Below are positions 79 through 18,940 of a stretch of 64,000 nucleotides of DNA, piece by piece. Source of the stretch: Pseudoxanthomonas sacheonensis (lineage in GTDB: Bacteria; Pseudomonadota; Gammaproteobacteria; Xanthomonadales; Xanthomonadaceae). The stretch covers positions 62,001-126,000 of the forward strand of contig NZ_PDWS01000001.1 in the NCBI RefSeq assembly GCF_010093305.1. Reading direction: 5' to 3'. A model generated the notes under the pieces. It was not told the DNA's origin. It saw only the letters and a program-made list of their open reading frames with translations, and did not search any database. A program made the translations under genes and the position numbers. Position 1 is the first letter of the stretch. Each line of letters begins with the position of its first letter.

Positions 79-1368
79 GTGTCAGAACTCGACCAGGCCA
101 CATTGACCGCCGGCGAAAAATCGGTGGTCATGCCGGTACTCAAACCCACGCTCGGCAATAGTTGTGTCGACATTTCCAAGCTGACCAAGGAAACGGGTCT
201 TTTCACCTACGATTCCGGCTTCACCGCCACGGCCAGCTGCAAGTCCGCAGTCACCTACATCGATGGCGACGCCGGCGTGCTGCTGTACCGCGGCTATCCG
301 ATCGAGCAATTGGCCAAGCAGTCCAGCTTTCTGGAAGTGGCCTATCTGCTTATGAGCGGCGAGCTGCCCACGGCGGACGAATTCGCCAAGTTCGACCATG
401 AAGTCGCGCATCACACGATGATGCACGAGGCCTTCAAGAATTTCCTCGGCGGCTTCCGCCACGACGCGCATCCGATGGCGATGATGGTGGGCATGGTCGG
501 CTCGATGGCCGCGTTCTACCACAACACGCTGGATCTGGAAGACCCCGAGCAGCGCCGCCTGGCCGCGATCCGCCTGATCGCCAAGGTGCCGACGATCGCG
601 GCAGCCTGCTACCGCTATTCGATCGGCTGGCCGGTGCGTTTCCCGCGCAACAACCACGCCTACGTGGACCGCTTCCTGCACATGATGTTCGAGGTGCCCA
701 GCGAGCCGCTGGATCTCAATCCGGTCGCCGCCAAGGCGCTGGATCTGTTGTTCATCCTGCACGCGGACCATGAGCAGAACGCTTCCACCTCCACTGTGCG
801 CATGGTCGGTTCCACCGGCGCCAATCCGTACGCCTGCGTCGCTGCCGGCGTGGCGGCGCTGTGGGGTCCGGCGCACGGCGGCGCCAACGAGGCCGTGCTG
901 AAGATGCTGGCCGAGATCGGCAAGCCGGAGAACGTCAGCTCGGCGGTCGACAAGGCCAAGGACAAGGAATCGGGTTTCCGCCTGATGGGCTTCGGCCACC
1001 GCGTGTACAAGAATTTCGATCCGCGCGCCAAGATCATCCGCGAGATGACCCACGAAGTGCTGGCCGAACTGGGCGTCAACGACCCGATGCTGGAAGTGGC
1101 GCTGCGCCTGGAAGAGGCCGCGCTGAAGGACGACTATTTCGTGCAGCGCAAGCTGTACCCCAACGTCGACTTCTACAGCGGCATCATCTACAAGGCGCTC
1201 AACATCCCCACCGAGATGTTCACGGTGATGTTCGCCATCGCCCGCACGGCAGGCTGGGTGGCGCACTGGCTGGAGCAGCAGGTCGACCCGGAAGCCAAGA
1301 TCGGCCGCCCGCGGCAGATCTACACCGGCTACGCCGAGCGCGACTACAAGGGCATCGATCAGCGTTGA
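79..1368 (+). CDS. gltA: Citrate synthase (type II, hexameric-type length)
   Basis: GltA condenses acetyl-CoA with oxaloacetate to citrate, the entry step of the TCA cycle in the cytoplasm. The 429-residue product matches the usual length of Gram-negative citrate synthases. The catalytic set is visible: His266 in GPAHGGANE, His307 in [14 protein letters not shown] and Asp364 in NVDFYSG; the [12 protein letters not shown] segment (about 228-239) is also typical. Translation starts at a GTG; AAGGAG lies about 8 bases upstream, which supports this start. The gene stands alone and is closed by a strong hairpin terminator. The identification is very secure; NADH sensitivity cannot be judged by eye. 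Confidence 0.97.
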
Positions 1369-1391
1369 TCGGTTCCGTTTCGTGCAACAAG

Positions 1392-1420
1392 AAAGCCCCG
1401 CATTGCGGGGCTTTTTTTTG
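1392..1420 (+). terminator. Rho-independent terminator of gltA
   Basis: A GC-rich stem (AAGCCCCGC paired with GCGGGGCTT, 3-base loop) is followed by a run of eight T residues. It begins about 25 bases after the gltA stop codon. Confidence 0.92.
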
Positions 1421-1453
1421 TCTTAATGTTTTCGGACAAAGACATGCGTTCGA

Positions 1454-1876
1454 CTACGGTTCTTCAGTTATAACAATGCGCGGGTCGCTAGAAAGGATGT
1501 CAGATAGGTCGGCATTGAGCTTCAGGAGTGCCGGGCCCGTGTCGGACTTATTGAATAGTCTTTTGAGGAGCGGAATCTCCGCTACGGCGAAACAGTGCCA
1601 GAAGATATGTTCCTTGGGCGGCGGCGGATCGCTCTCTTGGGCGGTGGAATAATCCGTCACGTTTCCGCAGCCCACCCAAAGCATGAATGGATCTCTGGAA
1701 CACATGAGGCATCTTCCCCAATCTTCATTGATCACCGGCTCGACGTCGTAGCCGCGTAGCTCCAGCTGTTCCTTCAGCCAATTGGCAAGCTGACGACCGT
1801 ACATCCGGGGGTTGATCTCCTGATCCTCTCCAGGTTCGATATCGAACATACTGGATTGAAACCAGAAACCGTCCAT
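1454..1876 (-). CDS. Hypothetical cassette-type protein, 140 aa
   Basis: No function is recognised. The 140-residue product has no signal peptide or membrane segment and is rich in Trp, Cys and acidic residues (MDGFWFQSSMF at the N-terminus, LMCSRDPFMLWVGCG near residue 57). I recall similar short proteins being encoded in integron gene cassettes, but I could not search for them. Its ATG lies only 2 bases after the end of an attC-like site (1878-1937), the usual distance for a cassette gene. Base composition is clearly lower in G+C than the flanking gltA and mrcA. No attC-like site is seen after its stop, so this may be the terminal, eroded cassette. Confidence 0.7.
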   Translation of the reverse strand: MDGFWFQSSMFDIEPGEDQEINPRMYGRQLANWLKEQLELRGYDVEPVINEDWGRCLMCSRDPFMLWVGCGNVTDYSTAQESDPPPPKEHIFWHCFAVAEIPLLKRLFNKSDTGPALLKLNADLSDILSSDPRIVITEEP

Positions 1877-1877
1877 T

Positions 1878-1937
1878 GGTCAGCACCTGAGTTGAGTCGG
1901 CCCGCGAAGCGGGTTCGGCTTGAATGAATTGCTAAGT
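1878..1937 (-). mobile_element. attC-like site 1 (60 bp, integron recombination site)
   Basis: Read on the minus strand this 60-bp segment runs from ACTTAGC to GCTGACC. It contains CAATTCATTCAAGCCGA, then the hairpin CCCGC-TTC-GCGGG, then CCGACTCAACTCAGG. This closely follows the layout of the classical 59-base element of aadA-type cassettes, which begins GTCTAAC, contains CAATTCATTCAAGCCGA and CGCTTCGCG, and ends GTTAGAT. Both 7-bp core sites are degenerate (TTAGC instead of TAAC; GCTGACC instead of GTTRRRY), so the site may be inactive. It separates two minus-strand genes. Confidence 0.68.
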
Positions 1938-1989
1938 ACATGCCCACGCTATAAGAGATGGCCTCTCAATCGAAGATGTTAGGCATGCT

Positions 1990-2298
1990 TCAGATCACAA
2001 CGAGCTTCGCGCCGCGGAAGTAAAGTGCGACGGAAAGTATCCCGCCCAGCACGATTCCTACAGTGGCGTCGATGAGAATATTGTTTCCGGTAATTCCGGA
2101 AGCCGTTATGGCGCCGATAACTGCCCCTGCAACCGGAGTCCATGTGCCAAATGTCAGCACGACAAGATAACTGAGCCGCGAGACACCTATCCTTGCGCCG
2201 CAATTTGCACAATCAACGGCACGAAGACCGCCCAACAGAAACAGTTGCCACACGCTCACTGTCGATCGCCCGCACGCTGGGCAACTTCGTTTCATCAT
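1990..2298 (-). CDS. Small zinc-ribbon membrane protein
   Basis: The 102-residue product starts with two Cys pairs, CPAC (residues 5-8) and CANC (about 30-33), which would form a zinc ribbon of the kind seen in small membrane proteins. Two hydrophobic segments follow (about residues 43-68 and 76-95). Function is unknown. Its start lies 6 bases after the stop of the RraB-like gene with no attC-like site between, so the two would be co-transcribed, possibly from one two-gene cassette. A GCCTAAC sequence lies just after its stop codon on the minus strand and could be the outer end of a longer attC. Confidence 0.65.
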   Translation of the reverse strand: MMKRSCPACGRSTVSVWQLFLLGGLRAVDCANCGARIGVSRLSYLVVLTFGTWTPVAGAVIGAITASGITGNNILIDATVGIVLGGILSVALYFRGAKLVVI

Positions 2299-2304
2299 GT
2301 CAGG

Positions 2305-2730
2305 TTAGTGCTTTGCATTGATGGGTCCTACATCCATGCCGTCATACGACTCAAGGCCGTGATCATCCGCAAACTTGTACAAAACCTTGTTTCTTTGGTC
2401 GAGAGAATCTGGGGTATGAATATCGACCTTTTCGACATGGAGCCACCACAGATCGGGATCTTTAGGGCTTTCTTTCTCGGCGAGATACAAGTCCACGAAC
2501 CTGTAGCCCTGAGATTCCAAGGCCGGCTTGGCTGCTTGGAGTCGTTCTTTGGAGTTGTCTGTGAAGAAATAGCCCCAAACCATGGGCTTAGAAAAGTCCC
2601 AAGAACTGTCCTGAGACATGCTGTCGAACATTTCAATAAGCTGATCCTTCGTAATCATGTTTCTGTCTTCTGTCTGACCACAGGCGGTTAGCAAAAAAAT
2701 CAGAAAGACGATCTTAATATTCTTCGACAT
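2305..2730 (-). CDS. RraB-domain lipoprotein
   Basis: The 141-residue product has a lipoprotein signal (MSKNIKIVFLIFLLTACG, lipobox LTAC with Cys17). A domain follows that resembles the ribonuclease E inhibitor RraB family: WGYFFTDNSKERLQAAKPAL, then a segment ending in LWWLHVEKVDIHTP, and DDHGLESYDGMDVGPI at the C-terminus. Cytoplasmic RraB binds RNase E. Here the lipoprotein signal would place the domain outside the cytoplasm, so RNase E control is unlikely and the role is unknown. The gene starts 15 bases after attC-like site 2, as expected for a cassette gene. Family assignment is by remembered pattern; the lipobox is clear. Confidence 0.68.
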   Translation of the reverse strand: MSKNIKIVFLIFLLTACGQTEDRNMITKDQLIEMFDSMSQDSSWDFSKPMVWGYFFTDNSKERLQAAKPALESQGYRFVDLYLAEKESPKDPDLWWLHVEKVDIHTPDSLDQRNKVLYKFADDHGLESYDGMDVGPINAKH

Positions 2731-2745
2731 GGTGTGTGTCTAGCC

Positions 2746-2803
2746 GTATAACGCCTGAGTAAATCCGATCCGCGAAGCAAGTTCGGCTAATGAGCTGCTA
2801 CGC
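2746..2803 (-). mobile_element. attC-like site 2 (58 bp, integron recombination site)
   Basis: On the minus strand the segment runs from GCGTAGC to GTTATAC. It shares with site 1 the blocks CATT-AGCCGAA, GCTTCGCGG and ACTCAGG in the same order and spacing. The right-hand core GTTATAC is close to the attC consensus GTTRRRY. The stop codon of the upstream gene (TAG at 2800-2798) lies inside the left-hand core, a common arrangement in gene cassettes. Confidence 0.68.
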
Positions 2804-3211
2804 CACCGCACGATGGACCTTTCCGGCACGTGCGAGATACTGCCCGAGGAGCGCTCCGACTGCAGCACAAGCAAGAGACAGCGCAATAGGCGCAGCATTG
2901 CTGGAAATAAGGTCTGCGTAGGTCAGGCCGAAAGAGAATTTATGCACATGGTAAAGCGCAAGCGCCCAGAAAGCGGCGCACACACCAATAGCGGTTGGAA
3001 CGAAGCCGCGCTTGGCAACGAATGCCCCGCAGGCAGCCGCGAGCATGCCGACTAGTGCCGTAGCAGGTTGCAATGAGGCATGGACGGCTGATGCCGCCGC
3101 GGTGACAAGCAAGTCGAAGGCGCTACCAACTGCGATAGTGATGACAAGCATGACGGCGGCGCCAGCGCACATACGCATATAAGGGCCTCTATTGTTGGCT
3201 TCTAGTCTCAT
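2798..3211 (-). CDS. Small multi-span membrane protein
   Basis: The 137-residue product has about four hydrophobic segments (about residues 13-33, 45-65, 68-88 and 100-130) and no motif I recognise. The stop codon lies inside attC-like site 2, so it reads as the first gene of the presumed cassette block. No clear attC-like site is seen upstream of its ATG. The gene ends up immediately next to the unrelated 218-residue gene upstream, whose stop codon is 6 bases away. Function unknown. Confidence 0.6.
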   Translation of the reverse strand: MRLEANNRGPYMRMCAGAAVMLVITIAVGSAFDLLVTAAASAVHASLQPATALVGMLAAACGAFVAKRGFVPTAIGVCAAFWALALYHVHKFSFGLTYADLISSNAAPIALSLACAAVGALLGQYLARAGKVHRAVA

Positions 3212-3217
3212 CGCTTC

Positions 3218-3871
3218 TTAGCGAGAAACACTTAGCTCGTACCCAGCAATCTCCTCATCGGCCAGCAACTGCCGCAGCTGCGCCAACGACGCCCTTTTCA
3301 TCGGCCGCTCGTCCACGCCCGACAGCGGCGCTTGCCGCAAGGCATCGTGCGGAAGCACGGTCACGTCGAAGGTCAGATCCTCGGCGCTGAACACCCATAC
3401 CGGAAAATCACCGCTGCGTTCGCGGTCCAACCGCAGATGGCGCGTGCGCGCGTCGGCGGGAATGCGGTGTTCTTCCAGGAAGCGCGGCACTGCTTCGGCG
3501 TCGTCGGTGTGCAGCTGCAGATGCACCGATGAATTGGCGTCGGCGGTTCCCTCCAGCACGGGACCGGCCAGGCGCGGGGAAAAACCGGCGAAGAACTCCA
3601 GCGCCCGCAAAGCGGCATCGCGGCGCAGACGCAGCGCCTGCTGTTGCGGCTGGCCGACGAACAGACGCTGGTACTCGCGCAGCGCGTCCTCTATCTCGCG
3701 GTTGCGCGGCAACGAAGCGTCGTCGTGGATGCCCAGGCGCTCGGCGGCTTTCAGCTTGGCCTGGTGGTAATCGCGGAAGCCGCCTTCGGCCATCAGCCGG
3801 GCCGCTTCGTGGGCCAACCGGTGGCGGCGTTCGCGGGTGCGGGTTTCGGCATGCTGGCGCGCGTGGTGCAT
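3218..3871 (-). CDS. Conserved hypothetical protein, 217 aa
   Basis: I know of similar xanthomonad proteins only as hypotheticals, sometimes loosely labelled as nucleotidyltransferase-like or as a peptidoglycan ligase; nothing here supports either label. The N-terminal third is basic and helical (repeated Arg/His, then EAARLMAEGGFRDYHQAKLKAA). The middle contains SLPRNREIEDALREYQRLF, and the C-terminal half looks like a soluble alpha/beta domain ending in DERPMKRASLAQLRQLLADE. The ATG at 3871 is preceded by a strong GGAGGGAG, so it is preferred over the in-frame ATG 15 bases upstream. Its G+C content matches the core genome, unlike the cassette block next to it. Confidence 0.75.
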   Translation of the reverse strand: MHHARQHAETRTRERRHRLAHEAARLMAEGGFRDYHQAKLKAAERLGIHDDASLPRNREIEDALREYQRLFVGQPQQQALRLRRDAALRALEFFAGFSPRLAGPVLEGTADANSSVHLQLHTDDAEAVPRFLEEHRIPADARTRHLRLDRERSGDFPVWVFSAEDLTFDVTVLPHDALRQAPLSGVDERPMKRASLAQLRQLLADEEIAGYELSVSR

Positions 3872-3923
3872 GGGCTCCCTCCGCATCTGACCAGCCCTAA
3901 CTGTACCCGATGCCGTGTTGCGG

Positions 3924-4006
3924 TTGTAGGAGCGCCCCCTGGGCGCGAGCTTTTTTGCCGGAGATCTCGCAGAGCAAAAGCTCGCGCCCAGGGGGCGCTC
4001 CTACAA
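3924..4006. repeat. Long inverted repeat, family A (GTAGGAGC type)
   Basis: Two arms of about 30 bases face each other (TTGTAGGAGCGCCCCCTGGG... and its complement ending GCTCCTACAA) around a spacer of about 23 bases. The element lies between the 3' end of mrcA and the start of the next minus-strand gene. It could fold as a hairpin at the end of the mrcA transcript. Confidence 0.85.
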
Positions 4007-4009
4007 GGG

Positions 4010-6502
4010 TCAGAAGATGTCGAAGGCGGCTTCGTCGGCGGCGGCGTTGTCGTCGGTATTGAAGAACTCTTCGCTCTGTATGCGATCCAGGTCCTCGGCC
4101 TTGACCCATTCGGTCGCACCGTTGCTGGTCACCTGCACCATGCCCTCCGGCGGATCGTTCTGCGCGATCGGCTGGTCCTTCAGCGCCTCGCGCATGAAGT
4201 CGATCCAGATGGGCAACGCGGCCTTGCCGCCGTACTCGCGGTAGCCCAGGCTGCGGAAATCGTCGCGGCCCACCCACACTACGGTGGAGTAGGGGCCGCC
4301 GAAGCCGCCGAACCACGCATCCCGGTGGTCGTTGGTGGAGCCGGTCTTGCCGCCCACATCCTCCCGGTTGAGGACCTTGGCCGCAGTGGCGGTACCGCGC
4401 AGGACGACATCGCGCATCATCGAGACCAGCTGATAGGCGGTGCGTTCGTCGATGGCGCGTGGGGCGACCACCAGGTTGGGGTCGACGGGCTTGGGTGCCG
4501 CGACGGGCTTCTTCGGAGTCGTTTCGGCGGGTGCTTTTGGTTTGCCGTCCTGGGCGGGACCGAAATCGAAGCCATCCACCACGGTGCTGGCCTGCTGCGC
4601 GGGAGCGCCGGCGACACCGCCGCCTCCGCAGGTGCGGCAGGCGGTGGCGGGCTTTTCCTTGAAGACGACGTTGCCTTCGCGGTCCTTGATCTCATCGATG
4701 AACCACGGCGTCACCCGCGAGCCGCCGTTGGCGAACACCGCATAACCGCGCGCCATCGACAGCGGCGTGAGCGAAGCGGTACCCAGCGACATCGACAGGT
4801 TGGGCGGCAGTTCGGCTTCGTTGAAACCGAACTGGCTGATGTACTTGCGCGCGAAATCCACGCCGATGCTGTCCAGCAGGCGCACCGACACCAGGTTGCG
4901 CGACTGCACCAGCGCCTCGCGCAGGCGCATGGGTCCGCGGAAGCCGCCGCCGTCGTTCTGCGGCCTCCACATGTGGCCGCGGCGGTCGCGGAACACCACC
5001 GGTGCGTCCAGAACGATAGAGGCCGGATTGAAGCCGCGCTCGAACGCCGCCGCATACAGGAACGGTTTGAAGCTGGAGCCCGGCTGCCGCCGCGCCTGAG
5101 TGGCGCGGTTGAACTTGTTGCCGGCGAAGCTGTAGCCGCCGATGATCGCCTTCACTGCGCCGTTGCTGGCGTCCAGCGATACCAGGGCGGCCTGGCCACG
5201 CGGGATCTGGTCGATCTGATAGGTGACTGGCCCCGCCGCTACGGCCGGCGCGGTTTCGCCGGGCTTGGTCGGGACCGCTTTCGGCGCGTCGGCTTTGATG
5301 CGGACCAGGTCCCCGCGTTTGACCAGCGCCGCCGCGCTCTTGCCGGTCCATTTGCTGGCCGAAGCCGGCAGGGCGACTTCGCTGGCGTCGGCCAGCACGA
5401 CGGTGATGCCCCCGTCTGCGTTGGTGCGCGCCACTACGGTGGGAATCAGTCCGTTCTGCACCGGGATGCCGGCCAGATGGCTGGCCAGGGCGGAGGCATC
5501 GGCATCGGCGGTGACCTCGAAATGCCTTTCCACGCCGTTCCAGCCATGGCGGTGGTCGTACAGGCGCAGGCCGTCGCGTACCGCAATATCGGCCGCGATC
5601 TGCATGACCGGGTCGATGGTGGTGGTGACGTGGTAGCCCTTGGTCAGCACCTCGCCGCCGAAGCGCGCGATCATTTCCTGGCGCACCATTTCGGCCACAT
5701 AGGGTGCATAGACCTCGACCGGACGCTCATGCGGCTTGGCGTGCATCGGTTCGGCCTGGGCCTCGGCGGCCTGCGCCGGGGTGATGTATTTGTCCTCCAG
5801 CATGCGCTCGATGACATAGACGCTGCGCTGGTGGTTGCGCTCGGGATTGCTGATGGGATTGCCGCTGGAGGGGAACTTGAGCGCGCTGACCAGGGTGGCG
5901 GTCTCGCCCAGGGTCAGCTGGTCCAGGGGCTTGCCGTAGTAGTACTCGGCCGCGGCGGCCACGCCGTAGGCGCGATTGCCGAAGAAGCTCTTGTTGAGAT
6001 AGAGCTCCAGGATCTGGGGCTTGGTCAGCATGCCCTCGATCTTCATCGCCAGCATCATTTCGACCAGCTTGCGGGTATAGCTGTATTCCGAGCTCAGGAA
6101 GAACTGGCGGGCCACCTGCTGGGTGATGGTGCTGCCGCCGGCCACGCGACCTTCCTTGAGGGTGGCGGTCTGCCATAGCGCGCGCGAGATGCCCTTCGGG
6201 TCGATGCCGTTGTGGGACCGGAAATTCGAGTCTTCCGCGGCAATGAACGCGTCCTGGACCTGCTTGGGGACGTTCTCGATGTTGACCGGGTAGCGCCGGG
6301 TCTCGCCGAAAAGCCCGATCAGACGCCCGTCGCTGGCATAGACGTAGAGGGGTTCCTGGAGTTCGACCGTGCGCAGGGACTGGATGTCCGGCACCTTCGA
6401 GGAGACCACGTAATAGAGGATTCCCAGACCTATGGCGCCAAGCAGGAACAGGGCTGTGAAGGTGAAAAATGCCCAGCGCAGCAGGCGGCGGAAACGGGAC
6501 AT
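4010..6502 (-). CDS. mrcA: Penicillin-binding protein 1A (bifunctional transglycosylase/transpeptidase)
   Basis: This inner-membrane enzyme polymerises lipid II and cross-links peptidoglycan. The 830-residue product has one N-terminal membrane anchor (about residues 10-30). A GT51 glycosyltransferase domain follows ([15 protein letters not shown] with the catalytic Glu, [12 protein letters not shown], and the [11 protein letters not shown] region). The long OB-like insert typical of PBP1A comes next, then the penicillin-binding domain with SSFK (nucleophile Ser), SRN and KTGSTN. The ATG at 6502 is chosen because [10 protein letters not shown] precedes the anchor as in homologues. A longer frame opens at 6619 but would begin upstream of the likely promoter (TATACT at 6544-6539). 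The gene is divergent from pilMNOPQ, a common xanthomonad arrangement. Confidence 0.95.
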
Positions 6503-6538
6503 CCGGTCAGATTCCGATTGCAGAATACGTGGCGCGGG

Positions 6539-6544
6539 AGTATA
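6539..6544 (-). promoter_or_regulatory. Possible -10 box for mrcA
   Basis: TATACT on the minus strand lies about 37 bases upstream of the chosen mrcA ATG. No convincing -35 hexamer was found at the right distance, so this is tentative. Confidence 0.3.
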
Positions 6545-6643
6545 GATGACTCGGGGTAGGGCGGTTACGTTCCGGGGGGAAACAGTGACTTGCCCGACAT
6601 CTTTAGTGAACCGTGACAAGCCGCACAGGCTGGTTAACGGCTA

Positions 6644-18851: not shown

Positions 18852-18940
18852 GCAGGAGCGATGTAGGAGCGACGTGAGTCGCGAAGGCATGTTGTCTCCG
18901 ACGGTTCATCGCGACTTACGTCGCTCCTACGTCGTTCCTA
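18852..18940. repeat. Inverted repeat, family A (GTAGGAGC type)
   Basis: GTAGGAGCGACGTGAGTCGC faces GCGACTTACGTCGCTCCTAC across a spacer of about 28 bases. A second, weaker GCAGGAGCGAT/GTCGTTCCTAC pair lies outside it. The element lies between batD and the symporter gene. Confidence 0.82.

Follow-up and report, generated by a model that had tools for sequence, protein, structure and literature searches.

We found a small block of integron gene cassettes between gltA and mrcA in the chromosome of Pseudoxanthomonas sacheonensis (genome G000; 4.04 Mb in 44 contigs), at a place where no integrase is encoded. The stretch of DNA analysed, here called the window, comprises 64,000 nucleotides and corresponds to positions 62001-126000 of contig C11 (NZ_PDWS01000001.1; 454,832 bp); positions given without a contig or locus label are those of the window. 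Made up of four small genes and two attC recombination sites, with no integrase gene alongside, the block is almost certainly a cluster of attC sites lacking an integrase (CALIN). Both attC are decayed, and the block is predicted to be immobile now. We consider it fairly likely (probability roughly 0.6) that the cassettes were placed by a trans-acting integrase just after the stop codon of a gene of 222 amino acids (aa) next to mrcA, and were then frozen there by decay of the sites.

Identification of two attC sites

Rfam was without a match in the window at its gathering threshold, and an attC covariance model was therefore made from sites of the genus itself. Source DNA were the array-side stretches beside the integrase gene (intI) in 19 other genomes of the genus, together with contig C25 of G000. 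A scan requiring perfect core boxes gave 170 palindromic sites, none of them from the stretch of genome G021; 149 were at most 61 bp and 146 exactly 60 bp long, 91 of the latter were distinct, and longer attC were left out. The resulting model, R1, comprised 90 sites, all from other genomes of the genus. Because the scan demanded perfect cores, both R1 and the comparison of folds given below lean towards intact sites.

Searched against both strands of the window, R1 gave two matches alone at E≤5, both on the minus strand. The attC of cassette B (1878-1937, 60 bp) scored 58.5 bits (E 3.5e-13) and had both core boxes changed, and the attC of cassette A (2746-2803, 58 bp) scored 35.1 bits (E 7.4e-7) and carried a 2-base deletion. 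An earlier reading of the letters without database searches (the sequence-only reading) had delimited two attC-like segments of 60 and 58 bp and proposed a covariance-model search of the minus strand as a check; the R1 matches reproduced both segments exact to the base. The two sites are 808 bp apart, which places them under the usual definition of a CALIN as at least two neighbouring attC. Ungapped identity to the genus attC consensus was 48/60 at 1878 and 36/60 at 2746 (both minus strand), against 30/60 for the next best place in the window; the 146 scanned genus sites showed 50 to 60 consensus identities. The matches listed among plasmid records (8 of 36 records) fell on the 1878-1937 site with 88.5-90.2% identity, and these records carry aadA11 or aacA34 annotation there. 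The aadA-type layout seen in the sequence-only reading is in line with these plasmid cassette ends, and the resemblance of the window site to aadA-type attC is real.

Several further details of the sequence-only reading held. The four minus-strand genes are indeed of lower G+C, the block having a GC content of 0.528 versus 0.65 for the window. One stop codon, that of gene A (2798-2800), lies inside the R'' box of the 2746-2803 site, and genes start close behind the cores, with 1 base between the 1878-1937 site and gene C and 15 bases between the 2746-2803 site and gene B1. No integrase gene was detected in the window, where the genome's own IntI had no tblastn match at E≤0.01. The interpretation as a CALIN was likewise supported, R1 matching both sites and none of 36 relatives carrying the genes at this place.

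Decay of the recombination sites

Neither site conforms to the core consensus RYYYAAC / GTTRRRY; the cores read ACTTAGC and GCTGACC at 1878-1937, and GCGTAGC and GTTATAC at 2746-2803. In the 1878-1937 site, 7 of the 14 core bases differed from the consensus compared with 5 of the 46 others, an enrichment of changes in the cores with a Fisher p of 0.004 in a post hoc test. The bottom strand of attC is the strand that integrases recombine. When this strand was folded computationally, the 91 distinct genus attC (one from C25) ranged from -11.6 to -20.7 kcal/mol, with a median R-box pairing of 0.97 and a minimum of 0.30, while values of -7.9 kcal/mol and 0.08 were obtained for 1878-1937 and of -6.4 kcal/mol and 0.00 for 2746-2803. 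Both window sites were thus predicted to fold worse than all 91 genus sites, a set chosen for intact cores, and another fold calculation gave a similar result. Among 12 other scattered attC of G000 that were folded, 11 were weaker than all genus sites, and the two good sites of C25 were not.

Both window attC are decayed; according to the predictions their R-box stem would not form and the block would not be mobile at present. The partial decay and degenerate cores described in the sequence-only reading are in agreement with both the core substitutions and the predicted folds. A core shared within this genome, with GCT in place of GTT, was considered and rejected, since other decayed sites change other core letters, and drift would therefore be sufficient.

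Cassettes and their genes

The four genes represent three cassettes, A, B (genes B1 and B2) and C, the third of which is missing its attC. Cassettes A and B each show one or two genes followed by an attC in the same direction, as is typical of cassettes, and C is without one.

Gene A (2798-3211, minus strand) is 137 aa long as an open reading frame (ORF), looks membrane-protein-like by eye and belongs to no Pfam family. This first ORF of the block begins at 3211, 6 nt past the stop of the 222-aa gene and in the same direction. Its start is probably at 3178 instead, 39 nt past that stop, because two environmental homologs (P0122 and P0123) are 126 aa long. In cassette B, gene B1 (2305-2730, minus strand; 141 aa) belongs to the RraB family (PF06877, 52.8 bits) and has a lipoprotein-like start, to which lipoprotein models match weakly and below cut-off. 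Gene B2 (1990-2298, minus strand; 102 aa) has a zinc-ribbon-like start with CPxCG and CxxC motifs, zinc-ribbon models matching below cut-off only, and one weak PHROG match to a family of unknown function.

Gene C (1454-1876, minus strand; 140 aa) belongs to a widespread cassette protein family. Its structure was predicted confidently (mean predicted local distance difference test, pLDDT, 91.5), and it had neither a fold match nor a sequence match in the PDB at E≤0.001. No Pfam family was common to more than two of 63 members of the gene C family at E≤1. Compared with four relatives, gene C differed by 0.29-0.32, 0.16-0.21 and 0.53-0.61 at codon positions 1, 2 and 3, a pattern as expected for a protein under purifying selection, judged from these differences. 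Behind gene C, no score of unfiltered R1 in 1370-1500 exceeded 9.2 bits, the top one falling on the gltA terminator. A third attC there was rejected on this basis, and a collapsed attC near 1421-1443, noticed by eye, is not claimed. The four proteins were without a PADLOC match to defence genes.

Some other Xanthomonadaceae have homologs of genes A, B1 and C with attC beside them. The family sample consisted of 297 genomes from 54 genera, and its attC flank scan covered relatives of these three genes. Gene C had 341 relatives; in the family sample, relatives occurred in 12 other genomes and in 8 of the 54 genera, its own included. Four of these 12 genomes showed attC on both sides of the gene and one upstream only. 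At one such place (L163) the upstream attC stops 3 nt short of the start codon and the downstream attC begins 7 nt after the stop. Relatives of gene A were bracketed by attC at 3 of 5 other places, two of these with weak upstream sites, and had attC on one side at another. For gene B1 (48 other places matched), 1 of the 24 places examined had attC on both sides; this cassette-borne relative is L177 in genome G170. Gene B2 had 10 relatives in the protein database, its own entry included, and three distant relatives in the family sample (L206-L208, outside the flank scan). Plasmids yielded one distant relative of gene C (39%), the plasmid matches listed for the block cover only an attC, and phages gave no match to the block.

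Relatives of A, B2 and C with 77, 76 and 94% identity each lie on a contig of 2688 bp, which suggests one environmental contig carrying the block. As these relatives seem to share a contig, the block may be older than the present strain.

The locus in Pseudoxanthomonas sacheonensis and its relatives

The block lies some 63-65 kb inside its 454,832-bp contig, is bordered by resident genes at either end and is no product of a contig break. It is flanked by gltA (79-1368, plus strand) and by the 222-aa gene (3218-3886, minus strand; without a Pfam or NCBIfam match), beyond which follows mrcA (4010-6619, minus strand). The stop codon of the 222-aa gene, whose C-terminus is kept as in G029, the closest relative, forms the left end of the block. 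The right end falls between the hairpin terminator of gltA (1389-1417) and position 1453; relatives, too, have a terminator at the end of gltA. The GC content quoted above refers to 1424-3217; among 623 segments of equal length (step 100 bases) one was as low, and those within 0.01 of it all overlap the block. G+C at third codon positions was 0.55-0.64 in the block genes versus 0.80-0.87 in gltA, the 222-aa gene and mrcA. The ORFs between 1369 and 3217 are the four genes, with no transposase or recombinase gene among them.

Out of 38 genomes of the genus, 37 had a gltA match (G013 had none and was left out), which gave 36 relatives for comparison of the gltA-mrcA interval, a check that the sequence-only reading had also proposed. 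None of the 36 carried any of the four genes in the gltA stretch fetched (tblastn, E≤1e-4), and R1 detected no attC in the same stretches (286 kb) at E≤0.5. The 222-aa gene lay within the fetched stretch in 30 of the 36; 29 intervals were read, G002, whose two genes are some 7 kb apart, being left out. Measured between the last aligned residues, seven of the 29 intervals were 83-180 bp long (G001, G004, G007, G008, G014, G024 and G037), and the others were longer and mostly of high GC. G029, identical at 98.7% over the last 150 GltA residues, has an unrelated insert of 5.26 kb with a GC content of 0.54 in the same gap. With the block missing from the relatives and G029 carrying other DNA here, the gap between gltA and mrcA is a variable spot and the block is specific to the present genome within this sample. 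The G029 insert (L067 7043-11924) encodes an X-Tfes effector with XVIPCD and lysozyme domain, a 405-aa protein without a Pfam match, and a type IV secretion coupling protein.

Integrases and other attC in the genome

The block had been called orphan in the sequence-only reading, with a genome-wide search for intI and attC as a check. The term proved correct for the locus, where no intI is found, and incorrect for the genome, because other contigs carry a complete and a broken intI. The complete IntI is at C4:121520-122458 (335 aa; 466 bits versus a cut-off of 265), and matches above cut-off lie on C4 only. The second intI, on C25, is broken and accompanied by cassettes and good attC. At E≤0.001 R1 detected at least 18 distinct attC in the genome, a count that may be low because 150 of 4266 candidates were scored. 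Four of these are on C4 and C25, and at least 14 are distributed over nine other places, on C8, C9, C11 (the window), C18, C39, C40, C41, C42 and C44. In the 9-15 kb fetched around each of the eight scattered loci outside the window, the genome's own IntI gave no tblastn match; near the C42 attC a fragment matched the integrase family weakly (22 bits, far below cut-off). The attC on C18 and C40 are near contig ends and may be parts of one broken-up array.

Throughout the genus, attC at E≤0.001 were detected in 38 of 38 genomes (two with one weak match only) and intI above cut-off in 25. G029 showed 34 attC matches at E≤0.001 and no integron integrase above cut-off, and is an integrase-less genome that retains many cassettes.

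Pieces of the integron attachment site attI were observed at three other loci. On C8 (L150 5487-7076) there are two, of 73 and 47 bp and 92-94% identical to the C4 attI, each followed on the same strand by an ORF and an attC, which results in tandem attI-gene-attC units with no intI match. On C44 (L157 5538-5580) the array starts directly past the stop of a gene that is TetR-like by eye, with a 32-bp attI piece first; the flank is common to G029, G004, G037 and G024 up to the stop of this gene and divergent beyond it. On C20 (L160 4643-4756) a stretch of 114 bp is 88% identical to the C4 attI region and is followed 0.4 kb further on by a weak attC-like match (20.5 bits). The decayed attC locus on C9 (L152 5492-6049) was also found in G029 (L289 1975-2028) at the same place with 93% identity (weak attC, 25 bits) and is therefore older than the split from G029, unlike the block beside gltA.

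Both integrons carry the same insertion sequence at the same base within an attC, behind GGCTTAATTCAG, on C4 (L009 1642-1720) and on C25 (L122 1-253), and both contigs end in it. A fragment at its end matched IS110-family RNA-guided transposases with 24 bits, below cut-off. IS110/IS1111 elements that target attC are known.

Origin of the block

In the account that we favour, IntI working in trans would have attached excised cassettes at a secondary site within the narrow space ahead of the gltA terminator, directly behind the stop of the 222-aa gene and in the direction of that gene, from which read-through would express the cassettes. No promoter-like site came out of a sigma-70 scan of 1300-4100, which covered this single promoter type and had 1.0 site expected by chance. 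Later drift would have changed both core boxes of one attC and removed two bases and the core pairing from the other, and the last attC would have been lost. In its present state the block would no longer move and would be passed on as part of the chromosome, purifying selection probably acting on gene C at least. Insertion in trans at a secondary site is favoured because neither attI nor intI left a trace in the window, while the same tests detected attI pieces at C8, C20 and C44 and the broken intI on C25. Candidate junction cores are GCTAAGA on the left (3216-3222, minus strand) and ATTAAGA on the right (1421-1427, minus strand), which have TAAGA in common. Crossover at secondary sites takes place at a GWT triplet. 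G029 reads GTT at the last bases it has in common with the window, but its own insert also starts there. A GNT triplet rule for such crossovers is given in the accessible part of PMC10127599.

A number of observations weigh against this account. Other CALINs of the genome keep attI pieces, which points, at least there, to fragments derived from integrons and not to insertions of single cassettes. Cassette C lacks the attC expected a few bases past its gene's stop, relatives of gene C were without detected attC in 7 of the 12 genomes, and those of gene B1 are mostly not in cassettes (1 of 24 places examined). The apparently shared 2688-bp contig hints that the block moved in one piece, something that stepwise insertion does not call for. 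Finally, an exact empty site for the proposed junction was seen in none of the relatives, G029 having its other insert there.

Alternatively, a full integron with intI and attI might once have been present behind the gene on the mrcA side and lost intI, attI and the last attC through deletions. The attI pieces and the broken intI elsewhere in the genome show this kind of remnant, and the missing attC indicates that deletions did happen at the locus. We nevertheless regard a collapsed integron as unlikely, given that the window holds no attI or intI trace, that only 6 nt (39 nt to the likelier start) separate the upstream stop from the first ORF, and that attC are found here in none of the 36 relatives. 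A block assembled elsewhere might also have arrived whole, by homologous recombination or with another mobile element, in a gap that repeatedly takes up foreign DNA, as the unrelated G029 insert and the 2688-bp contigs would suggest; this appears quite improbable to us, with no transposase or recombinase gene between 1369 and 3217, no phage match and only attC among the plasmid matches listed. The idea that the sites are no attC, and that hairpins or terminators merely happen to lie between small genes with nothing in common, was rejected on sequence identity and deserves practically no credence. Compared with shuffled sequence neither site shows a better fold (z -0.37 and -0.26), and Rfam is silent; yet their consensus identities are above the next best in the 64 kb, their R1 E-values are 3.5e-13 and 7.4e-7, and plasmid cassette ends match the 1878-1937 site at 88.5-90.2% identity.

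Insertion in trans behind the 222-aa gene might be extended to a general habit. The genus would then domesticate cassettes repeatedly, its integrase dropping them, sometimes with a piece of attI, behind resident stop codons in the direction of the gene; read-through would express them, and loss of the attC cores would turn the useful ones into ordinary, locked-in genes of the chromosome, with the integron still active at another place. Possible examples are the mrcA-side gene here and the TetR-like gene at C44. We consider this generalization very doubtful at present.

Relation to known systems

Cassette insertion at genomic attG (secondary) sites has reportedly been obtained in experiments by Loot et al. 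in 2024, as cited in PMC12444791 and PMC12901181. The window cassettes resemble such insertions in being chromosomal, away from an integron and without attI; in contrast to that experimental work, we infer both the junction and the reaction at the window locus. In Xanthomonas, CALINs outside the ilvD locus are described for about half of the genomes, with intI, where kept, located elsewhere, and seven conserved CALIN loci are named for well-sampled species (accessible part of PMC12444791). As described there, these are attC clusters without a proximal intI from the same bacterial family; the window block differs in having a position shared by none of the 36 relatives, two decayed sites and no attC behind its last cassette. 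With at least two attC and no integrase at the locus, it resembles the class of CALINs and single attC sites lacking an integrase (SALINs) of IntegronFinder 2, as far as this is set out in the available text of PMC9024848 and PMC12690207. A CALIN of P. suwonensis is presented in the latter as an integron of the mobile type that has heterogeneous attC and carries aadA1, unlike the window block, which has genus-type attC only and no recognised resistance gene.

The accessible text of PMC8352920 lists Pseudoxanthomonas among the genera with Xanthomonadales-type attC and assigns aadA1a and aadA7 to Xanthomonadales. The attC of these aadA cassettes are of the same sequence type as the window sites, though the former cassettes are mobile and the window sites degenerate. 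Pseudoxanthomonas attC are instead placed in a marine clade in the corresponding part of PMC11089894. This locus is not mentioned in the available portions of PMC12690207, PMC8352920 and PMC11089894. The kind of element, CALINs away from the integrase locus, is already known, and the block is an ordinary example of it.

The block offers a clearly resolved instance of core-chromosome cassettes whose recombination sites are failing, and the attC of the genome around it range over several stages of decay. Comparing strains can therefore measure what becomes of cassettes that have left an integron, whether they are kept, locked in or lost. The cassette protein family of gene C numbers hundreds of relatives, and the libraries searched assign it no function.

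Other features of the window

Between mrcA and the next gene, at 3926-4004, we observed a 25-bp inverted repeat (GTAGGAGCGCCCCCTGGGCGCGAGC and its complement). Relatives contain many repeats of about this size. Shorter pairs of GTAGGAGC occur at 18863/18923 and 59536/59619 of the window.
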